A DNA stretch of 64,000 nucleotides from Myxococcus stipitatus. Its GTDB lineage: Bacteria > Myxococcota > Myxococcia > Myxococcales > Myxococcaceae. Position 1 is the stretch's first letter. Every line of letters begins with the position of its first letter. The position numbers were made by a program, and so were the translations under genes. Positions 38,858 through 50,368 of this stretch are shown here, piece by piece. The notes under the pieces were generated by a model. The model saw only the letters and a list, made by a program, of their open reading frames with translations, searched no databases and had not been told where the DNA came from. Location: assembly GCF_038561935.1 (NCBI RefSeq), contig NZ_CP102770.1, positions 1,240,001-1,304,000 on the forward strand, given 5' to 3'.

Positions 38858-40314
38858 ATGCTGCCCACCTCCGGCTCCACGACCCGCAAGCTCCTGCTCG
38901 CATTCGGCGCGCTCGTGGCCCTCTTCACCGCCGCGTCGGGCTTCGCGCTCGCCCGGCTGGCCGACATCCACGACGGCTCGCACCAGCTGCGCGAAGCCGG
39001 CAACCGCGTCCGTGATGCGCTCGAGCTCGCCACCGCCGTGCGAGACCAGTACGCCCACGTGGCGCACACCATCATCCTCGGCAACGCGAGCCACGTTCAC
39101 TTCCACGAGGAATCCCGGGCGCGCGTCGAAGCGCTCACCCGCCGTCTCCGTGAGCAGGCACAGGACGACGAGGAGCGCGCCTGGGTGGCCGACATCCAGG
39201 AGAACGGCGATGCCCTCGAGCGCCTGTACCGCGACTCCCTCCTCCCCGCCGTGCTCGCGAAGGACCACGCCACCGTCACCGCAGTCCACAGTCGGGTGCT
39301 CGAGCGCGTGTCGCTCGTCCAAGCCCGCGCCGAATCCCTGGCGCATCGCTTCGACAACTCCATCGGCTCCTTCGAGGCCCACGTCGGCGCCGTCGAACAC
39401 AACAGCTTCCGCTGGGCGCTGCTCCTGCTCGGTGGCGCCACGCTGTTCGCCATCGGCGTGGGCATCTACATCGGTAACTCCGTGGCCCGCCCCGTGGCTC
39501 GCCTGTCCGAGGGCGCCGCGCGCCTTGCCCAGGGAGACCTCGACACGCGCATCCCCGAGAATGACCCCGGAGAGCTCGGCCAGCTCGCCGCGCAGTTCAA
39601 CCGCATGACCGAGGCCCTGCGCACCCACCAAGCCCAGCTCGTCCAACACGAGAAGCTCGCGAGCGTCGGCCGCCTCGCCGCGGGTGTGGCGCATGAAATC
39701 AACAATCCCCTGGGCGTCATCCTCGGCTATGTGCGCATCCTCCAACGCAAGGCGGAGGGCCCCCTGGCCGAGGACCTCAAGGTGGTCGAGGAGGAGGCCG
39801 TGCGCTGCCAGCAGATTGTCGAAGGGCTGCTCGACCTCTCCCGCCCGGGCCATGGACCGATGGAGAAAGTCTCCGTGCGAGAGACCTGTGAGGACGTCGT
39901 GGCGAGACTGCGAGAAGCCGAGCGACTCGGTCAGGTGGAGGTGCGCGTGGAGGGCACCGCGAGCGCATGGGCCCAGCCCCTGCGCCTGCGCCAGGTCCTG
40001 CTCAACCTCGTGAAGAACGCCGCGGAGGCCGCGGGCTCGGGCGGCACCGTCGAGGTGCGAATCGAGCCCGACAAGGACGGAGGCGCCAGCGTGGCCATCT
40101 CCGACTCCGGGCCCGGCGTGAAGCCCGAGGACCGTCGCCGCCTCTTCGAGCCCTTCTTCACCACCAAGTCCACGGGCACCGGCCTGGGGCTCGCCGTGAG
40201 CCAGGCCATCGCGGAGGCGCACGGAGGACGCATCGAAGCGGACACAGGTCCACTCGGGGGTGCACGCTTCACCCTGCGGCTCCCACCCGCCTCCGCCGAG
40301 AGAGAGGCCATGGC

Positions 40315-40318
<4 letters not shown>
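38858..40318 (+). CDS. sensor histidine kinase (HAMP, HisKA, HATPase)
   Basis: 486 residues: N-terminal transmembrane helix, periplasmic helical sensor (about 30-185), second helix (WALLLLGGATLFAIGVGIYIG), HAMP (NSVARPVARLSEGAARLAQGDLDTRIP), H-box GVAHEINNPL with His279, and ATPase N-box NLVKNAAEA, G1 DSGPGV and G2 GTGLGLAV. The 'EINNPLG' H-box is NtrB-type. It phosphorylates the adjacent sigma54 activator, with which it overlaps as ATGA. Signal unknown; a small-molecule or envelope signal is likely because the sensor is periplasmic. Confidence 0.93.
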
Positions 40319-41739
<1,421 letters not shown>

Positions 41740-41833
41740 CGCCGCGTTCCACCCAGGCGAGAGGTCATGCGACTCCCCCTCGCCCAGGTGCCGCGAAGAA
41801 CGAATGTGACGGAGCGCGAGACCGGCCCCCGCG

Positions 41834-42682
41834 TCAGAATGCGGGAACCACCGCGCCGCCGTAGTTCGCCTCGATGAACTTGCGCACCTCGGCGGACTGG
41901 AGCGCCTTGAGCAGCACGCGGACCTCGGGGCGGGCATCGTCGCCCTTCCGGACCACAATCACATTCGCGTACGGGTTGCGCGCGGAGGACTCGCTGGCGA
42001 GCACCTTGGCATCGAGCTTCAAGTGCTTCTGCGCCTCCAGGAAGTAGTTGCCGTTGATGACCGCGGCGGCCACGTCCTCCAGCGTGCGCGGCTGCTGCTC
42101 GGCATCAATCTCCCGCAGCTCCAGCTTGCGCGGGTTGCCCACCACGTCCTGCACGGTGGCGGCGGCCCCCACGTTCTCACGCAGGCGCAGCAACCCATGG
42201 TCCTCCAGCAGGTGCAGCGCACGCGACGCATTGCTGGGGTCCGACGGGATGGTGACCTGCGCGCCCTCGGGCAGCTCCGCGAGCTGACGGTACTTCGTCG
42301 AGTACAGCGCGAGCGGCTCCAGATGCACGGCCCCGGCGCTGCTCAGCGACAGCTTCCGGTCCGCGGCGAAGCGCTCCAGGTACGGCACATGCTGGAAGTA
42401 GTTGGCATCGAGCTGTCCATCGGCCAGCGCGATGTTGGGCTGCACATAGTCGGTGAACTCGACCACCTCGACGCGCACGCCGTCGCGCAGGGCCACGGGC
42501 ACCGCCGCGCGGAGAATCTCCCCATGGGGCACGGGATTGACGCCGACCTTGAGGGTGGGAACGCCCGGGGCCTCGCCCGTGGCGGGGGCTTCGGACTTCT
42601 TGCAGCCCGTCCCCACCAGCAACGCGGCGGAGATGGCGGCGAAAGCCAAGGGAATCAGCAGGAACGATGAAGGTGGCTTCAT
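41834..42682 (-). CDS. metQ: MetQ/NlpA-type substrate-binding lipoprotein
   Basis: 282 residues from ATG 42682. Signal with lipobox VGTGC (Cys27). The mature part has the NlpA/MetQ pattern: LKVGVNPVPHGEILRAA, VEFTDYVQPNIALADGQLDANYFQH, and IPSDPSNASRALHLLEDHGLL. Binds methionine or another sulfur amino acid in the periplasm and feeds MetNI. Last gene of cysK-metN-metI-metQ, 56 bases after metI. The frame runs on upstream to 43393, but the lipoprotein start is clear. Confidence 0.93.
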   Translation of the reverse strand: MKPPSSFLLIPLAFAAISAALLVGTGCKKSEAPATGEAPGVPTLKVGVNPVPHGEILRAAVPVALRDGVRVEVVEFTDYVQPNIALADGQLDANYFQHVPYLERFAADRKLSLSSAGAVHLEPLALYSTKYRQLAELPEGAQVTIPSDPSNASRALHLLEDHGLLRLRENVGAAATVQDVVGNPRKLELREIDAEQQPRTLEDVAAAVINGNYFLEAQKHLKLDAKVLASESSARNPYANVIVVRKGDDARPEVRVLLKALQSAEVRKFIEANYGGAVVPAF

Positions 42683-42738
42683 GGGGTGTGGAATCCAGAC
42701 AGGGGGCGCGGCGCGAACAGCACCGCCGCGCGGATATT

Positions 42739-43419
42739 TCAGTCGTGTGCGCGATGGGGCGCGGAGCTCGTGTGGTCGAACCGGGAGGCCAGGCCATCCC
42801 CCAACCACTGCACGAGCTGCACCAGCGCCAACAGCACGGCGAGGCAGCCCAGCATGACGTCGGTGCGGAAGCGCATGTAGCCGTACTTCACCGCGAGGTC
42901 TCCCAGCCCACCTCCACCCACGGCTCCCGCCATGGCGCTGTAGCCGAGCAGGCTGATAACCATGAGCGCCGTCCCGCGCACGAGAGAAGGCAGGGCCTCC
43001 GGCAGCAACACGCGGAAGATGACGCGCTGGTGCGTGGAGCCCATCGCGATGGCCGCCTCCACGAGGCCCGCATCCACCTCCCGCAGCGCCTGCTCCACCA
43101 CGCGGCCCATGAACGGAATCGCCGCGACCACCAGTGGAACGATGGCCGCCGTGGTGCCAATGGTCGTCCCCACCAGCCACCGCGTCAGCGGGACGATCGC
43201 CACCATCAGGATGATGAAGGGCACCGAGCGCCCCACGTTGACCAGCGTGCCCAGCACGCGGTTCAGCGCCGGTCGCTCCCACAGGCCGCCCCGGTCCGTC
43301 AGCACCAGCAGCACGCCCAGGGGCAACCCCACGAGCACCACGAGCAACGTGGCCACGGACGTCATGTAGAGCGTCTCCAGCGTGGCCGTCCACAACCAGC
43401 GAGCAAGTTCAGGCGGCAC
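42739..43419 (-). CDS. metI: methionine-type ABC transporter permease
   Basis: 226 residues with five to six membrane helices and the EAA-loop EAAIAMGSTHQRVIFRVLLPEALP that docks on MetN. GTG 43419 is used with GAGGAGG 6 bases upstream; it overlaps metN by 11 bases. Family members move D- or L-methionine and some move cystine or other S-compounds; the cysK neighbour leaves that open. Confidence 0.92.
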   Translation of the reverse strand: MPPELARWLWTATLETLYMTSVATLLVVLVGLPLGVLLVLTDRGGLWERPALNRVLGTLVNVGRSVPFIILMVAIVPLTRWLVGTTIGTTAAIVPLVVAAIPFMGRVVEQALREVDAGLVEAAIAMGSTHQRVIFRVLLPEALPSLVRGTALMVISLLGYSAMAGAVGGGGLGDLAVKYGYMRFRTDVMLGCLAVLLALVQLVQWLGDGLASRFDHTSSAPHRAHD

Positions 43420-44410
43420 GAGCAGCCTCCTCGGTCGTCAAGCCCTGCTCGCGCAGGAACACCAGCGCCTGGCGCACCGCCTCCGGTGCCCCCGTGAGCT
43501 CGAACAGCAGTCGTCCCACGCGCGCCTCACCCACGCGCTCCAGCGAGCCCTCCAGCAGGTGCGCATCCACGTCGAACCGGCGCGCCAGCGTGGAGAGGAT
43601 GGGCCGCGTGGAGTGCTCACCCGCCAAGGTCAGCGCCACGCGATATCCACCGCGGAGGACGGGGCCCTCCCCCGTCGAGAACGGCGGGTAGCACAGCTCA
43701 TGAAGCCGGGTGCCCGGGCGGGACAGGAGGTCCAGCACCTTGCCCTGCTCCACCAGTCGGCCCTTCTCCAGCACGGCGGCGGAGTCGCAGATGGACTTCA
43801 CCACCTCCATCTGGTGGGTGATGAGCAGGACGGTGAGCCCCAGCTGCCGGTTGAGGTCCTTGAGCAGCGCCAGTACGGAGCGGGTCGTCTCCGGGTCCAG
43901 CGACGACGTGGCCTCGTCCGACAACAGGATGCGAGGCCGAGGCGCCAGCGCCCGCGCGATGCCCACGCGCTGCTTCTGCCCACCCGACAGCCGCGCCGGG
44001 TAGACCTCCGCCTTGTCGCTCAAGCCCACCAGCGAGAGCAGCTCGGAGACACGCGCCCGAATCTGCTCGCGAGGAAGGCCCGCCACCTCCAGCGGGTAGG
44101 CGACGTTCTGCGCCACCGTCTGCGAGGAGAAGAGGTTGAAGTGCTGGAAGATCATCCCGATGCCCTGCCTCGCCTTGCGCAGCGCCTCGGGACTCAAGCC
44201 CAGCAGCTCCTGCCCGTTCACTCGCACCCGGCCCTCGGTGGGGCGCTCCAGCAGGTTGACGCAGCGGATGAGCGTGGACTTGCCGGCGCCACTCTGGCCC
44301 AGCACGCCGAACACCTCGCCCGGCTCCACTCGCAGCGACACGTCCTGGAGCGCCGGCACCTCGCGCCCGCCCTGCCTGTACACCTTGCTGATACCGCGCA
44401 GCTCAATCAT
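43409..44410 (-). CDS. metN: methionine-type ABC transporter ATP-binding protein
   Basis: 333 residues: Walker [10 protein letters not shown] (38-46), Q-loop, [15 protein letters not shown] signature, Walker [13 protein letters not shown], and a C-terminal NIL regulatory domain (about 260-333) that binds substrate for trans-inhibition. The start overlaps the cysK stop as ATGA. Forms the transporter with MetI and MetQ. Confidence 0.95.
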
Positions 44411-45375
44411 CCACCGACTCCCTGCGGCGTGTTCGCGAGCTCCTCGGCGAACGCCGCGAAGGAACTCCAATAACGCTCCCCCGTATCCGGCAGCACGGTG
44501 AGCACCGTCTTGCCAGGACCCAGGCGACGCGCCACCTGCCGGGCCGCATGCAGCGCCGCGCCGCTGGAGACGCCGACGAGCAGCCCCTCCTTGCGCGCCA
44601 GGTCCCGAGCCGCCAGGTAGGCGTCCACATCCGCCACGTCGATGACCTCGTCGTACACGCCGCGGTCCAGCACCTCCGGAACGAAGTTGGCGCCCAGGCC
44701 CTGGATGCGGTGCGGGCCGGCCTTGCCCTGCGTGAGCAGCGGCGAGCGCAGCGGCTCCACGGCCACCACCTGGAGCGACGGGTTCGCCTTCTTGAGCACC
44801 CCGCCCGCGCCCGTGATGGTGCCGCCGGTGCCGATGCCCGCGACGAACGCATCCAGCTTCGTCACGTCCAGGTCGCCCAGGATCTCCTTCGCCGTCGTGC
44901 GCCGGTGGATCTCCGGGTTGGAGGGGTTGCGAAACTGCTGCGGCATGAAGCCCTTGTCGCCCAGCGACTTGACCAGCTCCTCGGCGGCCTCGACGGCGCC
45001 CGTCATTCCCTTGGAGGCGGGCGTGAGCAGCAGCTCCGCGCCATAGGCCTCGAGGATGCGGCGGCGCTCCACGCTCATGCTCTCCGGCATGGTGAGGACG
45101 ATGCGATAGCCCTTCACCGCGGCGACCATGGCCAGCGCGACGCCGGTGTTGCCGCTGGTGGGCTCGACAATCGTCATGCCCGGCCGCAGGCGGCCGTGGT
45201 TCTCCGCGTCCTCAATCATCGCCAGGCCGATGCGGTCCTTCACGCTGCCGCCCGGGTTGAAGAACTCGACCTTCGCGAGGACGGTCGCCTCGTCGGGGCC
45301 GCCAATGCGCGACAGCCGGATGATGGGGGTCCGGCCGATGAGCTGCGTCACGTCGGGGTAGATGTTGTTGGGCAT
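44407..45375 (-). CDS. cysK: cysteine synthase A (O-acetylserine sulfhydrylase)
   Basis: 322 residues. PLP Lys46 in NPGGSVKDR, the substrate loop [17 protein letters not shown]-like [11 protein letters not shown], and [10 protein letters not shown] are complete. It makes Cys from O-acetylserine and sulfide in the cytosol. Heads an operon with metNIQ. The protein itself contains no Cys residue, which would let it be made during Cys starvation. Upstream are a Cys-codon leader ORF (45500-45586) and an attenuator hairpin, so expression probably rises when Cys-tRNA is short. Confidence 0.95.
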
Positions 45376-45420
45376 TCGCGTTTCTCGGTGGGAAAGGCCG
45401 GGACCGCGATGCTGCGCCCC

Positions 45421-45479
45421 GGCGTGTGGGGAAAAAGGAACGGCCCGTCTCCAGATGCTGGGGACGGGCCGGACACGCC
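45421..45479 (-). terminator. intrinsic terminator (attenuator) in the cysK leader
   Basis: Read on the minus strand, GGCCCGTC (45470-45463) pairs with GACGGGCC (45449-45442), extended by one more G-C pair, with a CCAG/CTGG inner stem, and is followed by GTTCCTTTTT (T-run 45436-45432). An outer GGCGTGT/ACACGCC pairing (45479-45473 with 45427-45421) could add stability. It stops 56 bases before the cysK ATG and after the leader ORF. Confidence 0.8.
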
Positions 45480-45499
45480 TGAGCGCGAAGGTGCGTTGC

Positions 45500-45586
45500 T
45501 CAGTACGCTCGAACGGACGGACCCGTCACGGCACGACAACACGTGCCACGACAACAGGTCCGGAACGGAGCGACGGAGACGAACAT
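45500..45586 (-). CDS. Cys-codon leader peptide of the cysK operon
   Basis: 28 codons from ATG 45586 (30 from ATG 45592) to TGA 45500-45502. It carries two tandem Cys-Cys pairs, all as TGT, at 45556-45551 and 45541-45536, embedded in [10 protein letters not shown]. There is no Shine-Dalgarno; the predicted promoter starts the mRNA near 45586-45590, so translation would be leaderless. The RNA can form a leader hairpin (CGGACC 45562-45557 with GGUCCG 45523-45518, and inside it GGCACG 45547-45542 with CGUGCC 45535-45530, whose loop is exactly the second Cys pair) or an antiterminator (GACGGGUC 45527-45520 with terminator arm 45470-45463). Mycobacteria have comparable leaderless polycysteine ORFs that attenuate cysteine operons. 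Stalling at Cys codons should switch cysK on. Confidence 0.75.
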
Positions 45587-45595
45587 TGGCATCAG

Positions 45596-45624
45596 GACGT
45601 AACCAATCCGCCCAGGACTGTCAA
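45596..45624 (-). promoter_or_regulatory. sigma70-type promoter of the cysK operon
   Basis: TTGACA at 45624-45619, a 17-base gap, and TACGTC at 45601-45596 (or TTACGT one base earlier with an extended TGG). The -10 is weak, the -35 is perfect. The start would fall near 45586-45590, at the leader ATG. Confidence 0.55.
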
Positions 45625-45637
45625 CCCGACCTCCCCC

Positions 45638-46795
45638 TCATGCGGCCTCGCGGAAGGAGCGCCCGAGGGCATTCGCCAGGTCCGCCTGGAGGTCCTCCAC
45701 GTCCTCCAACCCCACGGAGAAGCGAATCAGGCCGTCGGTGATTCCCCGGCGCTCGCGCTCCGCCGCGGGCACGGAGGCATGCGAGTGCCTCGCCGGCACC
45801 GTGATGATGCTCTCCACCGCGCCCAGCGACACGCCGAGCAAGGGCAGCCGCAGCGACTCCACGAACGTCGCCGCCATGGCGTCATGGGCCAGCCGGAAGG
45901 ACACCACCGCGCCGGTGCCCGGGTAGAAGACCTCTCGAATCTCCGGCCTGCTCCCGAGCCAGCGGGCAAGGGCTCCCGCCGTGCGCACCTGTCGCTCCAT
46001 GCGGACCTGGAGCGTCTTGATGCCCCGCTGGAGCAGGAAGCAGTCCTGCGGTCCCAGCACCGCGCCCACCGCGTTCTGGAGGAAGTAGACCTCCTTGGCG
46101 AGCTCCGGCGTGCGCACCACCACCGCTCCGGCGACGACGTCGCTGTGTCCCCCCAGGTACTTGGTGGCGGAGTGGATGACGATGTCGGCGCCCTCGGTGA
46201 GCGGGCGCGAGAGGTAGGGCGACAGGAACGTGTTGTCGACGATGAGCAACGCGCCGTACGTCCGCGCGAGGATGGACATCGCGGTGACGTCGGTGCGCCG
46301 CAGGAACGGGTTGCTCACCGTCTCCACGAGCAGCCCCTTGGTGTTGGGGCGGAACGCGGCCTTCACCGCGTCCGGGTTGCTGGTGTCGACGAAGGTGGCC
46401 TTCAGGCCGAAGCGGCTGAACACCTTCGTGAGCACGCGGTAGGTGCCGCCGTAGCAGTCATCGGTGACGACCAGGTGGTCGCCCGCGCTGAACAGCATCA
46501 GCACGGTGGACAGCGCGGCCATGCCGGAGCCGAACGCGAACGCGCCCGCGCCTTCGTCCAGCTTCGCGAGCACGCCCTCGAGCGACTTGCGCGTGGGGTT
46601 TCCCGAGCGCGCGTAGTCGAACTCGCCGGGCTGGTCGAGCCCCGGCTGGTCGAACATGGACACCTGGTAGATGGGCACCGCCGCGGCGCCCGTCACCGGG
46701 TCGACTTCATGGCCGGTGTGCAGCAGCCGGGTCGCGAAGTTCGACAGGGCGGGAGCGCCCGTCGAGCGCTTGGGCCAGATCGGAGATGATGTCAT
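45638..46795 (-). CDS. PLP-dependent transsulfuration enzyme, MetB/MetC family (second copy)
   Basis: 385 residues. ATG 46795 with GAGG 7 bases upstream is inside the preceding gene (89-base out-of-frame overlap). Cys/Met-metabolism PLP fold: YARSGNPTRKSLE, FGSGMAALS, NTFLSPYLSRPL, PLP Lys in HSATKYLGGHSDVVAG, and SVGLEDVEDLQADL. Its specificity is not readable; with a sister gene upstream it may be the cystathionine beta-lyase (MetC) or a gamma-lyase. Identity to the sister is clear throughout, so an old tandem duplication is likely. Confidence 0.85.
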   Translation of the reverse strand: MTSSPIWPKRSTGAPALSNFATRLLHTGHEVDPVTGAAAVPIYQVSMFDQPGLDQPGEFDYARSGNPTRKSLEGVLAKLDEGAGAFAFGSGMAALSTVLMLFSAGDHLVVTDDCYGGTYRVLTKVFSRFGLKATFVDTSNPDAVKAAFRPNTKGLLVETVSNPFLRRTDVTAMSILARTYGALLIVDNTFLSPYLSRPLTEGADIVIHSATKYLGGHSDVVAGAVVVRTPELAKEVYFLQNAVGAVLGPQDCFLLQRGIKTLQVRMERQVRTAGALARWLGSRPEIREVFYPGTGAVVSFRLAHDAMAATFVESLRLPLLGVSLGAVESIITVPARHSHASVPAAERERRGITDGLIRFSVGLEDVEDLQADLANALGRSFREAA

Positions 46796-47834
46796 CGGAG
46801 TCCTCGATACCCACGGAGAGGCGAAGCAGTCGGTCAGTGATGCCAAGCTGTTCCCGGCGCGCGACGGGGATGTCCGCGTGGGTCTGCGTGGCGGGGAAGG
46901 TGATGAGCGTCTCGACGCCGCCCAGCGACTCGGCGAAGAGGCACAGGCGCACGCCGGCGAGCACCTGGGGCACCAGGGCCGCTTCCGTGACGCTGAAGGA
47001 GAGCATGCCGCCCGTGCCCGGGTAGTAGACGCGCTCCACCTTGGGGTGGCCGGACAGGAACGCCGCCACCGCGCGCGCGTTGGACTGGTGGCGCTCCATG
47101 CGCAGCGCCAGCGTCTTGAGGCCGCGAATCACCAGGTACGCGTCCTGCGGCCCCAGGATGGCGCCGATGCCGTTCTGCGCGAAGAGCAGCTTGTCGCCCA
47201 GCGCCGCGTCCCGCGCGACGAGCGCGCCCGCGACCACGTCGTTGTGTCCGGCCAGGTACTTGGTCGCGCTGTGGACGACCAGGTCCGCGCCGAGCTCCAG
47301 CGGGCGCTGGAGGTAGGGCGTGTAGAACGTGTTGTCGACGATGAGCAGCACGCCCGCCTTCCTGGCGATGTCCGCGAGCGCGGGCAGGTCCGCCGTCTTC
47401 ATCAGCGGGTTGGTGGGCGTCTCCACCAGCAGGGCCTTGGTGTTGGGGCGCAGCGCGGCCTTCACGGCCTCCGGCTTCGTGGTGTCCACGAAGGTGTAGG
47501 GGACGTGGAGCAGCCGGTCCACCAGCCGGTAGGTGCCGCCGTAGAGGTCCTCGGTGAGGATGATGTGGTCCTCGGGGCCGAAGAGCTGGAGCGCGCAGTG
47601 CAGCGCGGCCATGCCGGACGCGAAGGCCAGGCCCTTGCTGCCGCCCTCCAGCTGCGCGAGCGCGTCCTCGAGCGCCGCGCGGGTGGGGTTCTTCGTGCGC
47701 GAGTAGTCGTAGCCGGTGGACTGACCCAGCGCGGGGTGCTGGTAGGTGGCGGAGTGGTAGACGGGGACGGCGATGGCGCCGGTGCTCGGGTCTCTGCGGG
47801 TTCCGGCGTGGACGAGGGCGGTGGCGATTTTCAT
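46707..47834 (-). CDS. PLP-dependent transsulfuration enzyme, MetB/MetC family (first copy)
   Basis: 375 residues from ATG 47834, 32 bases after the thrA stop. Family motifs: YDYSRTKNPTRAALE, FASGMAALH, VDNTFYTPYLQRPL, PLP Lys in HSATKYLAGHNDVVAGA, and SVGIEDSDDIISDLAQAL. Cystathionine gamma-synthase (MetB) is a good reading because it follows a homoserine dehydrogenase gene and a SAM riboswitch, but lyases of the same family cannot be excluded. The next gene begins inside its 3' end. Confidence 0.88.
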   Translation of the reverse strand: MKIATALVHAGTRRDPSTGAIAVPVYHSATYQHPALGQSTGYDYSRTKNPTRAALEDALAQLEGGSKGLAFASGMAALHCALQLFGPEDHIILTEDLYGGTYRLVDRLLHVPYTFVDTTKPEAVKAALRPNTKALLVETPTNPLMKTADLPALADIARKAGVLLIVDNTFYTPYLQRPLELGADLVVHSATKYLAGHNDVVAGALVARDAALGDKLLFAQNGIGAILGPQDAYLVIRGLKTLALRMERHQSNARAVAAFLSGHPKVERVYYPGTGGMLSFSVTEAALVPQVLAGVRLCLFAESLGGVETLITFPATQTHADIPVARREQLGITDRLLRLSVGIEDSDDIISDLAQALDGRSRPVELRDPAAAHRP

Positions 47835-47866
47835 GGGAGAGGGCTCCGGGTGACTGGGGGACGGCT

Positions 47867-50368
47867 TCAGCGGCCCCGCAGCGTCTGGGAGATTCGGAGG
47901 ATGTCGGCCAGCACGCCGGACGCGGTGACGGCGCCGCCCGCGCCCGCGCCGCGGACGGTGAGGGGGAACTCGCTGTGCCGCGTGGTGGTGAACGAGACGA
48001 AGGACTCGGTGCCGCGCAGGTCCGCGCCGGGCTGGCCCGGCTCCACGGCGGCGATGCCCACGCGGATGACGGGGGAGTCCGTGCCCAGCCGCGTCGGGTC
48101 GATGCGCGCCAGGTAGCGCAGCACCGTGCCGGACTGGCGGCAGCGCTCCACCTTCTGCGCGTACTCGGCATCCAGCGAGCGCAGGCTGCGCAGGAAGGAG
48201 TCGGGGGACTCGTTGGAGTCCTCCAGCGCGGGGACGAAGGGCTCCAGCGCCACGTCGGTGAGCGACAGCGACAGGCCCAGCTCCCGCGCGAGGATGAGCG
48301 CCTTGCGCGCGACGTCCGCGCCGGACAGGTCCTCGCGAGGGTCGGGCTCGGTGAAGCCCTTGTCCCGCGCGGAGCGCACGGCGGTGGACAGCGGCACGCC
48401 CGCCAGGAGCTCGTTGCAGATGAAGCCCACGCTGCCGGAGAGCGACGCGGTGATGAGGCGCACGGTGTCGCCGGTGCGCACCAGGTTGGCGAGCGTGTCG
48501 ATGACCGGGAGGCTGGACGCCACCGTCGTCTCGTAGTGGTAGCCCACGTGGTGACGGCGGGCCTCGGCGATGAGCGCCTCGCGCTCGTTCCACGGCAGCG
48601 CCAGGGGCTTCTTGTTGGCGGCGACGACGTGGATGCCTCGGCGGAAGGCCTCCGTGTACAGCGAGGCCACGCCGCCGTCGGCGGTACAGTCGACGAGGAT
48701 GGGCACGGGCAGCCGGCGCAGCTCGTCGAGGAGCGGCGGCAGCGCCTGGGTGCCGGGCTCACCTCGGACGACGCGGGCGAGCTGCTCCTCCAGGCCCTCC
48801 AGCGCGAGCCCGGAGGCATCGAAGAGGGTGTGCCGGCTGTCGGCGATGCCCACCACGCGCAGCGCGATGCCGTGGCGCTCGCGCAGCTGTGCCTGCTGGG
48901 CGCGCAGCTGCGCCAGGAGCTGACCGCCCACGGTGCCCTTGCCCAACAGGAAGAGGTTCACCTGCTGGTGCGCCAGGTTGAAGGCGGCGTGGGTGGTGCG
49001 CACCGCGATGGAGGTGTCCGCCGCGTCCACGACGCAGGAGATGGAGCGGGAGCTGGCGCCCTGGGCGCTGGCTCGCACGTTGACGCCCACCGCGCCCAGC
49101 GCGCTGAAGAAGCGGCCGGCCACGTTGACGCCGTGACCCATGGCCTCGGCGACCAGCGTGAGGAGCGTGACGGGCTGGCGGACGCCGAGCGGCTCCACCT
49201 CGCGGCGGGAGAGCTCCTGCGCCAGCTCTGTCTCCAGCGCGGTCCGGGCGCGCTGCACGTCCGGCAGGGGCACGACGAGCGCGATGGACTGTCCGTTGGC
49301 GGACTGGGCCGTCATCCACACGGTGACGCGGGCGGCGCGCAGCGCGGACAGGACGCGCTCGCCCAGCTGGAACTGGTCGGAGAGCTTGCGGACCTCGATG
49401 CCGAGCAGCGCCAGGTCCTCGCGCGTGGCGATACAGGTGGGGCGGTTGTCGTCGCGCGAGCCGATGGCGTCGATGAGCGTGCCCGGGTGGTCCGGGTGCA
49501 TGGTGTTGCGGATGCGCAGGGAGATGCCGGACTCGATGAGCGGAATCATCGTGCGCGGGTGCAGCATGCGGACGCCCACGGCGGCCAGCTCCAGGCCCTC
49601 GGCGTGGGTGAGGTGGGGGACGGGGTACGCGTCGCTCACCAGGTCCGGGTCGGCGGTGTGCAGGCCGAGCACGTCGGTCCACACGGTGACTTCCGTCGCG
49701 CCCAGGCCCTGGGCGACGAGCGCGGCGGTGTAGTCGGAGCCGTTGCGGCCCAGCGTGGTGGTGCGGCCGTCCACGGTGGAGGCGATGAAGCCGGGGATGA
49801 CGGGCACGGAGGTGCCCCAGCCGGCGGCGCTCGCCTGGAGCTGGGTGCGCGTGCGGGCCACGTCCACGCGGGCGGTGCCGAAGGTGTCATCCGTGACGAG
49901 CAGCAGGCGCGCGTCGCGGAAGCAGGACTCGGTGCCCGCGGCGTTGAGCAGCTCGGCGAGGAGCGTGGCGGAGACGAGCTCACCGAAGGCGAGGACCTTG
50001 TCCTTGGAGGCGGGGGAACACTCGCGGGTGAGGGAGATGCCCTGGAGCAGTTGCTGAAGCGGGGCGAGGAGCTGGTCCACGCGGGCGGCGAGCGTCGTGG
50101 CCTGCGCGGCGTGGAGCGCGGCGGCGTTCGTCTTCGCGAGGTGGGCGATGCGCGCCACCACGGTGAGCGAGCCCTCCAGGTCTCCCTTCGTGGCGAGCTC
50201 GGCGGCCTCCAGGAGCCAGTCGGTGGTGTCGCCCTGCGCGGAGACCACCACCGCGAGCGGGCCGGTGCGGGCATGTTTGCCAATCAGCTCGATGACCTGG
50301 CGCAGGCGCCGGGGGGAGCCGACGGAGGAGCCACCAAACTTCATCACTCGAAAGGAATTGCTGCTCAT
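47867..50368 (-). CDS. thrA: bifunctional aspartokinase/homoserine dehydrogenase
   Basis: 833 residues, ThrA/MetL layout. Aspartokinase: KFGGSSVG (10-17), TLGRNGSDYTAALVA, then ACT repeats (about 310-465) with a GVNVRASAQGASSRSISCVV block; homoserine dehydrogenase: LLGKGTVGGQLL NAD site near residue 475, CTADGG, AANKKPLA and PVIDTLANLVRTGD. Start ATG 50368 (GAGG upstream). It phosphorylates Asp and reduces Asp-semialdehyde to homoserine, feeding Met and Thr. The operon with metB-like genes and a SAM riboswitch suggests the Met branch (a MetL role); thrA versus metL is a naming choice. Confidence 0.93.
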   Translation of the reverse strand: MSSNSFRVMKFGGSSVGSPRRLRQVIELIGKHARTGPLAVVVSAQGDTTDWLLEAAELATKGDLEGSLTVVARIAHLAKTNAAALHAAQATTLAARVDQLLAPLQQLLQGISLTRECSPASKDKVLAFGELVSATLLAELLNAAGTESCFRDARLLLVTDDTFGTARVDVARTRTQLQASAAGWGTSVPVIPGFIASTVDGRTTTLGRNGSDYTAALVAQGLGATEVTVWTDVLGLHTADPDLVSDAYPVPHLTHAEGLELAAVGVRMLHPRTMIPLIESGISLRIRNTMHPDHPGTLIDAIGSRDDNRPTCIATREDLALLGIEVRKLSDQFQLGERVLSALRAARVTVWMTAQSANGQSIALVVPLPDVQRARTALETELAQELSRREVEPLGVRQPVTLLTLVAEAMGHGVNVAGRFFSALGAVGVNVRASAQGASSRSISCVVDAADTSIAVRTTHAAFNLAHQQVNLFLLGKGTVGGQLLAQLRAQQAQLRERHGIALRVVGIADSRHTLFDASGLALEGLEEQLARVVRGEPGTQALPPLLDELRRLPVPILVDCTADGGVASLYTEAFRRGIHVVAANKKPLALPWNEREALIAEARRHHVGYHYETTVASSLPVIDTLANLVRTGDTVRLITASLSGSVGFICNELLAGVPLSTAVRSARDKGFTEPDPREDLSGADVARKALILARELGLSLSLTDVALEPFVPALEDSNESPDSFLRSLRSLDAEYAQKVERCRQSGTVLRYLARIDPTRLGTDSPVIRVGIAAVEPGQPGADLRGTESFVSFTTTRHSEFPLTVRGAGAGGAVTASGVLADILRISQTLRGR

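Follow-up and report, generated by a model that had tools for sequence, protein, structure and literature searches.

A probable cysteine-reading leader-peptide attenuator in front of metNIQ in Myxococcus

The classical ribosome-mediated attenuators are the trp, his, and leu leaders. Like them, the locus analyzed here, found in a 64-kb stretch of the Myxococcus stipitatus genome (the whole stretch is termed the window), comprises a leader ORF with tandem regulatory codons and mutually exclusive hairpin, antiterminator, and terminator structures, followed by a biosynthetic or uptake operon. On the other hand, it differs from those leaders in its Cys codons, its near-leaderless ORF, its metNIQ target, and its host, a member of Myxococcota. 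This phylum is known for very large regulatory genomes. Protein regulators, CysB or CymR for instance, are generally credited with the control of cysteine in bacteria, and polycysteine leaderless short ORFs were reportedly described in mycobacteria by Canestrari et al. in 2020.

The uORFC-8-2 motif is located upstream of cysS in Rhodobacterales. In the passage describing it (PMC8632094), the motif resembles the leader in the window in bearing tandem Cys codons in the first stem, followed by a terminator with a U run, whereas it belongs to a different phylum and to cysS, is dominated by UGC codons, and carries a single Cys pair, usually at codons 14-15; the leader in the window uses UGU and carries two pairs, and the gene following it and its homologues is cysK or metN. 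No tandem double leader, such as the one found before cysH in this study, appears in that passage (PMC8632094). The Cys leaders of mycobacteria are characterized, in passages of two sources, as leaderless, placed before sulfur operons, cysteine-responsive, and acting on translation (PMC9031893, PMC13236596), and the excerpted account of the Actinobacterial cys leaders gives them Cys runs near the stop codon and no conserved terminator (PMC1262725). To the extent covered by these sources, both groups share with the window a Cys-rich ORF before a sulfur operon, while the window differs from the Actinobacterial leaders in having Cys pairs in the middle of the ORF (codons 11, 12, 16, and 17 of 28) and an intrinsic terminator (45471..45432). 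As the Rhodobacterales cysS uORF and the Actinobacterial Cys leaders are the nearest published systems, we regard the type of mechanism as known and this form of it as new. A literature search short of full texts did not turn up a myxobacterial Cys attenuator, in agreement with the earlier note on this DNA, which knew of none.

The earlier note, made from the letters alone, had read the region upstream of cysK as a cysteine-responsive attenuator. Conservation across genomes and a computed ribosome-dependent switch support this reading, and we consider it very likely that the locus is a ribosome-mediated transcription attenuator, which reads charged tRNA-Cys and controls metNIQ, here together with cysK. 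The window contains a conserved ORF with Cys codons, RNA folds computed to exclude one another, and a terminator with a U-tract, and its features are as follows.

45619..45624, minus strand: -35-like element TTGACA, all six bases unvaried in 28 of 28 aligned loci
45597..45602, minus strand: -10-like element TTACGT with a 16-nt spacer (TACGTC if 17 nt), a putative role assigned from the sequence
45500..45586, minus strand: leader ORF of 28 codons, its length, start, and stop identical across all 28 aligned loci
45551..45556, minus strand: proposed regulatory Cys codons 11-12 (TGT TGT), from the sequence and the alignment of 28 loci
45536..45541, minus strand: proposed regulatory Cys codons 16-17 (TGT TGT), lying within the loop of the hairpin, from the sequence and the alignment of 28 loci
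45518..45562, minus strand: leader (anti-antiterminator) hairpin with a 7-bp outer and an 11-bp inner stem, from the MFE fold
45520..45527, minus strand: 5' arm of the antiterminator, GACGGGUC, from pairing counts over the aligned loci
45463..45471, minus strand: 5' arm of the terminator, CGGCCCGUC, common to the antiterminator, with 92.8% of cells paired as terminator
45441..45449, minus strand: 3' arm of the terminator, GACGGGCCG, from pairing counts over the aligned loci
45432..45440, minus strand: T-tract of the terminator, TTCCTTTTT, from the sequence, with T5 at 45436..45432
44407..45375, minus strand: cysK, cysteine synthase A (TIGR01139, above the cut-off)
43409..44410, minus strand: metN, ATPase of a MetNIQ-type ABC transporter (best match TIGR02314, 378.6 bits, below the cut-off of 499.7)
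42739..43419, minus strand: metI permease (NF008049, 212.6 bits against a cut-off of 212)
41834..42670, minus strand: metQ lipoprotein, start approximate (best match NF008285, E 1.8e-54, below the cut-off)

The genes after the leader thus comprise a cysK equivalog and a MetNIQ-type transporter that may feed cysteine to the cell. If the wider view of a cysteine regulon (see below) is true, MetNIQ of these bacteria would serve cysteine supply. A likely signal would be assigned to transporters of this type. CysK itself contains no Cys residue, as the earlier note had observed. Just upstream of the leader (45638-47858), there are two adjoining cystathionine synthase/lyase-like PLP genes, approximately 49% alike over the 135 residues compared, and this pair comes after a fused aspartokinase-homoserine dehydrogenase gene.

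The TTGACA promoter and an ORF with two TGT-TGT pairs were all found where the earlier note had placed them, but of the 28-30 codons proposed for the ORF only the shorter length holds: the start giving 30 codons (45592) is not conserved, and the second ATG (45586) is the sole one of the two in most homologues, so that we set the ORF at 28 codons. The ATG lies 38 nt past the first T of TTGACA in the window, and the corresponding distance, measured from the first T of TTGAC, is 37-39 nt in all 29 homologous loci. In the -10-like element, T-A-C and the final T are unvaried in 28 of 28 loci, and the match to the consensus is weak. Since this spacing from promoter to start is accompanied by no Shine-Dalgarno sequence seen between the -10-like element and the leader ATG in the window, initiation is probably leaderless or nearly so.

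A Cys-rich ORF at this spacing is rare in the window. Both strands of the 64 kb contain 48 TTGAC sites and seven short ORFs starting 34-40 nt downstream of them, among which the leader alone possesses at least three Cys codons. The loci fetched for this study (813,910 bases, both strands summed), which overlap, are related, and were mostly chosen around these leaders, contain 341 TTGAC sites and 67 short ORFs starting 34-40 nt downstream. At least three Cys codons are present in 51 of these ORFs, every one of which precedes metN or cysK-metN.

We searched the DNA of 96 genomes of the family without requiring Cys codons, and 30 matched. The match in G083 (29 bases, E 4e-5) yielded no leader by the locus finder and was left out of the counts. 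Homologues of the leader ORF were therefore counted in 29 genomes, namely 25 of the 27 Myxococcus genomes (genus g1) and four of the 16 genomes of genus g6. The locus finder behind the 28-locus alignment required a Cys motif and 25-31 codons, which biases the alignment towards such ORFs; the search free of the Cys motif recovered the same 28 loci plus one in G067. In the aligned loci, codons 11 and 16 are TGT in 28 of 28 and codon 17 is Cys in 28 of 28 (TGT in 16, TGC in 12), bearing out the conservation on which the earlier note had staked its reading, while codon 12 varies (Cys in 18, Arg in nine, and Phe in one). The G067 homologue retains Cys at codons 11, 16, and 17 and has Leu at codon 12. 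As the Cys codons of six neighboring genes in the window are dominated by TGC (13 TGC and three TGT), the choice of TGT in the leader is unusual.

The presence of the leader follows that of metN. Strong metN orthologues (E < 1e-140) were detected in 37 of the 96 genomes (25 in g1, four in g6, three in g7, two in g5, two in g3, and one in g2). Within g1 and g6, the leader occurs in 29 of the 29 genomes with metN and in none of the 14 without it; the latter are two Myxococcus genomes (G063 and G074) and 12 genomes of g6. A weak peptide match (E above 0.001) in G074 (locus L100) showed no short ORF with at least three Cys. On the other hand, cysK adjoins the leader in only 11 of the 29 loci (L005-L015); in the other 18, cysK was unmatched in the fetched locus (approximately 3 kb each), and metN starts 140-507 nt past the leader. 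We dropped the possibility that the leader is cysK's own, because the same leader precedes metN where cysK is absent from the locus, and conclude that it belongs to metNIQ. The observation made before cysK-metNIQ is confirmed, with the amendment that the conserved target is metNIQ. The neighbor upstream of the leader differs in g6. The distance between the leader and metN amounts to approximately 330-510 nt in L056, L060, L063, and L064, and this interval may contain a short ORF with AGGAGT in front of it.

The RNA elements named in the earlier note are all present: the hairpin CGGACC/GGUCCG enclosing GGCACG/CGUGCC occurs in both the sequence and the MFE fold, GACGGGUC can pair with the 5' arm of the terminator, and a GC stem, GGCCCGUC/GACGGGCC, runs into TTCCTTTTT before cysK, the whole terminator spanning 45471..45432. 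In the MFE fold, both Cys pairs are located inside the leader hairpin, the second exactly in its loop. The 168-nt leader RNA folds with a z of -5.69, and the stability of the hairpin was equaled by 11 of 2000 synonymous recodings, both of which go beyond chance. Over the 28 loci, 80.2% of the hairpin cells are paired, and 22 cells show two-sided changes, whereas the shuffles gave 10.9 and none of the 500 attained 22; the covariation score likewise exceeded all 500 shuffles. The number of pairs with a two-sided change is only four, reached by 235 of 500 shuffles, and all such changes fall in the inner stem and none in the outer. As for the antiterminator, 91.9% of cells can pair with the 5' arm of the terminator, as opposed to at most 55.8% when the arm is slid, but its covariation over the 28 loci was not better than in shuffles. 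Among 5000 recodings, 1130 attained the 8-bp length of this helix and 2088 the energy of its duplex, so that the helix taken alone is within chance and unexceptional.

We folded the nascent transcript as far as the loop of the terminator while masking the bases under a ribosome, whose footprint was assumed to reach from 12 nt upstream to 15 nt downstream of the first P-site base. In the window, the probability of the antiterminator was 0.92 with the A site at Cys11, 0.93 at Cys12, and 0.92 at Cys16. It fell to 0.00 at Cys17 and stayed there through codons 18-27, was 0.06 at codon 28, and was again 0.00 at the stop codon and in the absence of a ribosome. Among the 28 loci, this probability exceeded 0.5 in 20 at Cys11, 17 at Cys12, and 12 at Cys16, and in none at Cys17, at the stop codon, or without a ribosome. 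The computed switch is not specific to the Cys codons, since a ribosome anywhere on codons 6-16 of the window frees the antiterminator (0.57-0.93); the point at which it switches falls on the last Cys pair, between codons 16 and 17. In the completed RNA at equilibrium, the terminator wins even with a stalled ribosome, except in L021 and L032, where the terminator is poorly formed in every state. Antitermination must therefore be kinetic.

The strength of the switch was compared with 200 synonymous recodings per locus, using one locus per group. Measured against the state with no ribosome, the switch was matched by three of 200 recodings in the window, one in L020 (a locus without cysK), none in g7, nine in g6, and 37 in g5; by the stricter measure, against the larger of the no-ribosome and stop states, the counts were three, three, two, 45, and 21 of 200, respectively. 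The antiterminator in the register of the window has a probability of 0 in four of the four g6 loci, and in L018, the sole g6 locus subjected to the recodings, the arm pairs in another register. The folding with ribosome positions thus reproduces the idea that slow decoding of Cys frees the antiterminator, and the switch beats most synonymous recodings.

From these elements, we propose the following course of events. RNA polymerase would start at the ATG or a few nt before it, and ribosomes would load onto the near-leaderless ORF, as the spacing and the absent Shine-Dalgarno sequence suggest. When Cys-tRNA is ample, the ribosome would clear both Cys pairs and the leader hairpin would close behind it, locking GACGGGUC, and the GGCCCGUC/GACGGGCC terminator would halt transcription before cysK. 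A shortage of Cys-tRNA would make the ribosome stall at Cys11, Cys12, or Cys16 and keep the hairpin open; the freed GACGGGUC would then capture the emerging 5' arm of the terminator, and transcription would run on into cysK-metNIQ. With no translation, the hairpin would form and termination would be the default.

Short Cys ORFs were also found upstream of metN in g7 (three of the three genomes with a metN orthologue) and g5 (two of two). These ORFs start with GTG 36 nt after TTGAC, a GC stem and its T-rich tract lie downstream of them, and their peptides bear no evident sequence likeness to that of the window. When the g7 and g5 leaders were folded with no ribosome, the terminator arm was free (2.0-2.6 expected pairs), whereas a ribosome placed at Cys codons 8-9 led to its capture (9.0-10.0 pairs); earlier ribosome positions capture the arm likewise. 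Among the three g7 leaders, two had already released the arm at Cys11 (3.0 and 2.1 pairs), the third retaining 8.6 pairs. The g7 loci (L106-L108) possess a second strong hairpin (e.g., ACGTCAG/CTGACGT) between the leader and the terminator, which suggests an alternative fold more complex than that in Myxococcus.

The search for metN was also run over 195 genomes of the phylum. A second metN subfamily is preceded, at the same spacing, by ORFs encoding MKAPSREWLKALCCRCGC (G043), MKPRRCRCRCR (G013), and MFGRRRFLPCRC (G038). No Cys ORF at the leaderless spacing was found before metN in the single genome of g2 and the two of g3 (G001, G003, and G004), before the second copy of metN in either G033 or G034, or before metN in six genomes of family f3. 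In four loci of the second subfamily (L109, L110, L112, and L114), the -10 region lies inside a palindrome, TCCGTTATAACGGA, which could be a putative repressor operator over these metNIQ promoters.

The T-run following the stem varies among the 28 loci: it is four or longer in 19 (the window and 18 others, which have the hairpin as well), three in two, and shorter or absent in seven. The last seven keep the ORF and its Cys codons, as would be the case if the Cys leader acted mainly via translation or Rho, a mode proposed for mycobacteria. In that scheme, the stalled ribosome would alter access either to the start region downstream or to Rho, the GC hairpin being incidental. Accounts of Actinobacterial Cys leaders without a conserved terminator (PMC1262725) and of mycobacterial leaders attenuating translation (PMC9031893, PMC13236596) point in the same direction. 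We nevertheless consider this explanation unlikely, because 19 of the 28 loci, the window among them, have a hairpin followed by a T-run of four or longer, the leaders of unrelated sequence in g5 and g7 show the same arrangement, and cysK in the window starts 57 nt past the T-run. The Myxococcus group that keeps the leader and Cys codons without a T-tract offers a natural contrast between modes of attenuation.

Judged by the pattern of codon substitution, the signal for translation of the leader ORF is weak: the synonymous share is 0.271 in frame as compared with 0.247 and 0.167 in the other frames, and no excess of third-position changes was found in the alignment. The lack of concentration of changes at third positions, as well as GGTCCGTCCG being nearly unvaried across the aligned loci, would fit a conserved structured RNA (a riboswitch or a protein-binding element), of which the open frame is a by-product. 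This is very unlikely, given that the 28 codons are free of indels and bounded by the same start and stop in every one of the 28 loci, that TGT and TGC are exchanged at codon 17, that other Cys-rich ORFs are located at the equivalent place in other genera and before cysH (see below), and that a scan of positions 40000-50000 with Rfam (E up to 1) gave no match on the leader. Three weak Rfam matches were all off the leader and below the gathering scores. That the ORF makes a functional small Cys-rich peptide (e.g., metal- or thiol-binding) is extremely improbable: the peptide is conserved across 29 genomes, with GPSVR close to the C-terminus in most homologues, but the peptides elsewhere share only Cys and position, the RNA switch outdoes most synonymous recodings, and the linkage to metNIQ is exact within two genera.

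Beyond the attenuator at this single site, we lean, by a narrow preference, towards the view that myxobacteria run a cysteine regulon via leader peptides, in which at least two unlinked sulfur operons of one genome, metNIQ (with or without cysK) and the cysH operon, carry Cys leaders. The cysH operon would have two of them in series, with a terminator-like hairpin after the second in all cases and after the first in some species. The leaders before metNIQ would have arisen or been rebuilt more than once, with nothing retained but Cys codons, leaderless spacing, and RNA switch. Cysteine would then be sensed by the speed of translation in two unlinked operons, one of them with two serial Cys leaders, and the same genes would be preceded by leaders that are unrelated in sequence but follow the same RNA logic. 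This regulon-like extension adds to the interest of the locus.

The sulfate-assimilation cysH operon of the same genome (locus L149, G000:C1 ~3386650-3386050, minus strand) comprises cysH, a siroheme synthase gene, cysD, and cysN (cysH and cysD called by PF01507, the other two by ORF reading only) and is preceded by two tandem Cys-rich leader ORFs. Two ORFs from a loose -35 scan of the sulfur loci in the same genome, VGCGPLARI... (L149) and MTARACACATS... (L150), were taken as chance. The first leader, ORF A, encodes VLMTSTPMAALLRRCCRRACACCALSGLGC and starts 37 nt after TTGACG; the second, ORF B, ends with KACRCLACACVVCPPPGGLRASRSG and is followed by GGCCCGCC..GGCGCGGGCC with T5GT5 immediately before cysH. 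ORF A was matched in 27 of 27 Myxococcus genomes (E up to 0.01), and in 22 loci the Cys residues at codons 14 and 16 of its final 24 never vary, the finder having required a third Cys, the last codon. ORF B was recovered in 21 of the 22 loci, with Cys unvaried at two positions beyond the one required by the finder. A GC stem with a T-rich tract follows ORF B in 21 of the 21 loci with ORF B and lies between the two ORFs in eight of the 21, the tracts being recognized by simple patterns and the stems by eye. ORF A gave no coding signal (synonymous share of 0.137 in frame versus 0.242 and 0.213) and no clear switch in the folding test. ORF B carries a coding signal (0.374 in frame versus 0.157 and 0.103), and in its folding the arm was captured by default and released once the ribosome passes the last Cys.
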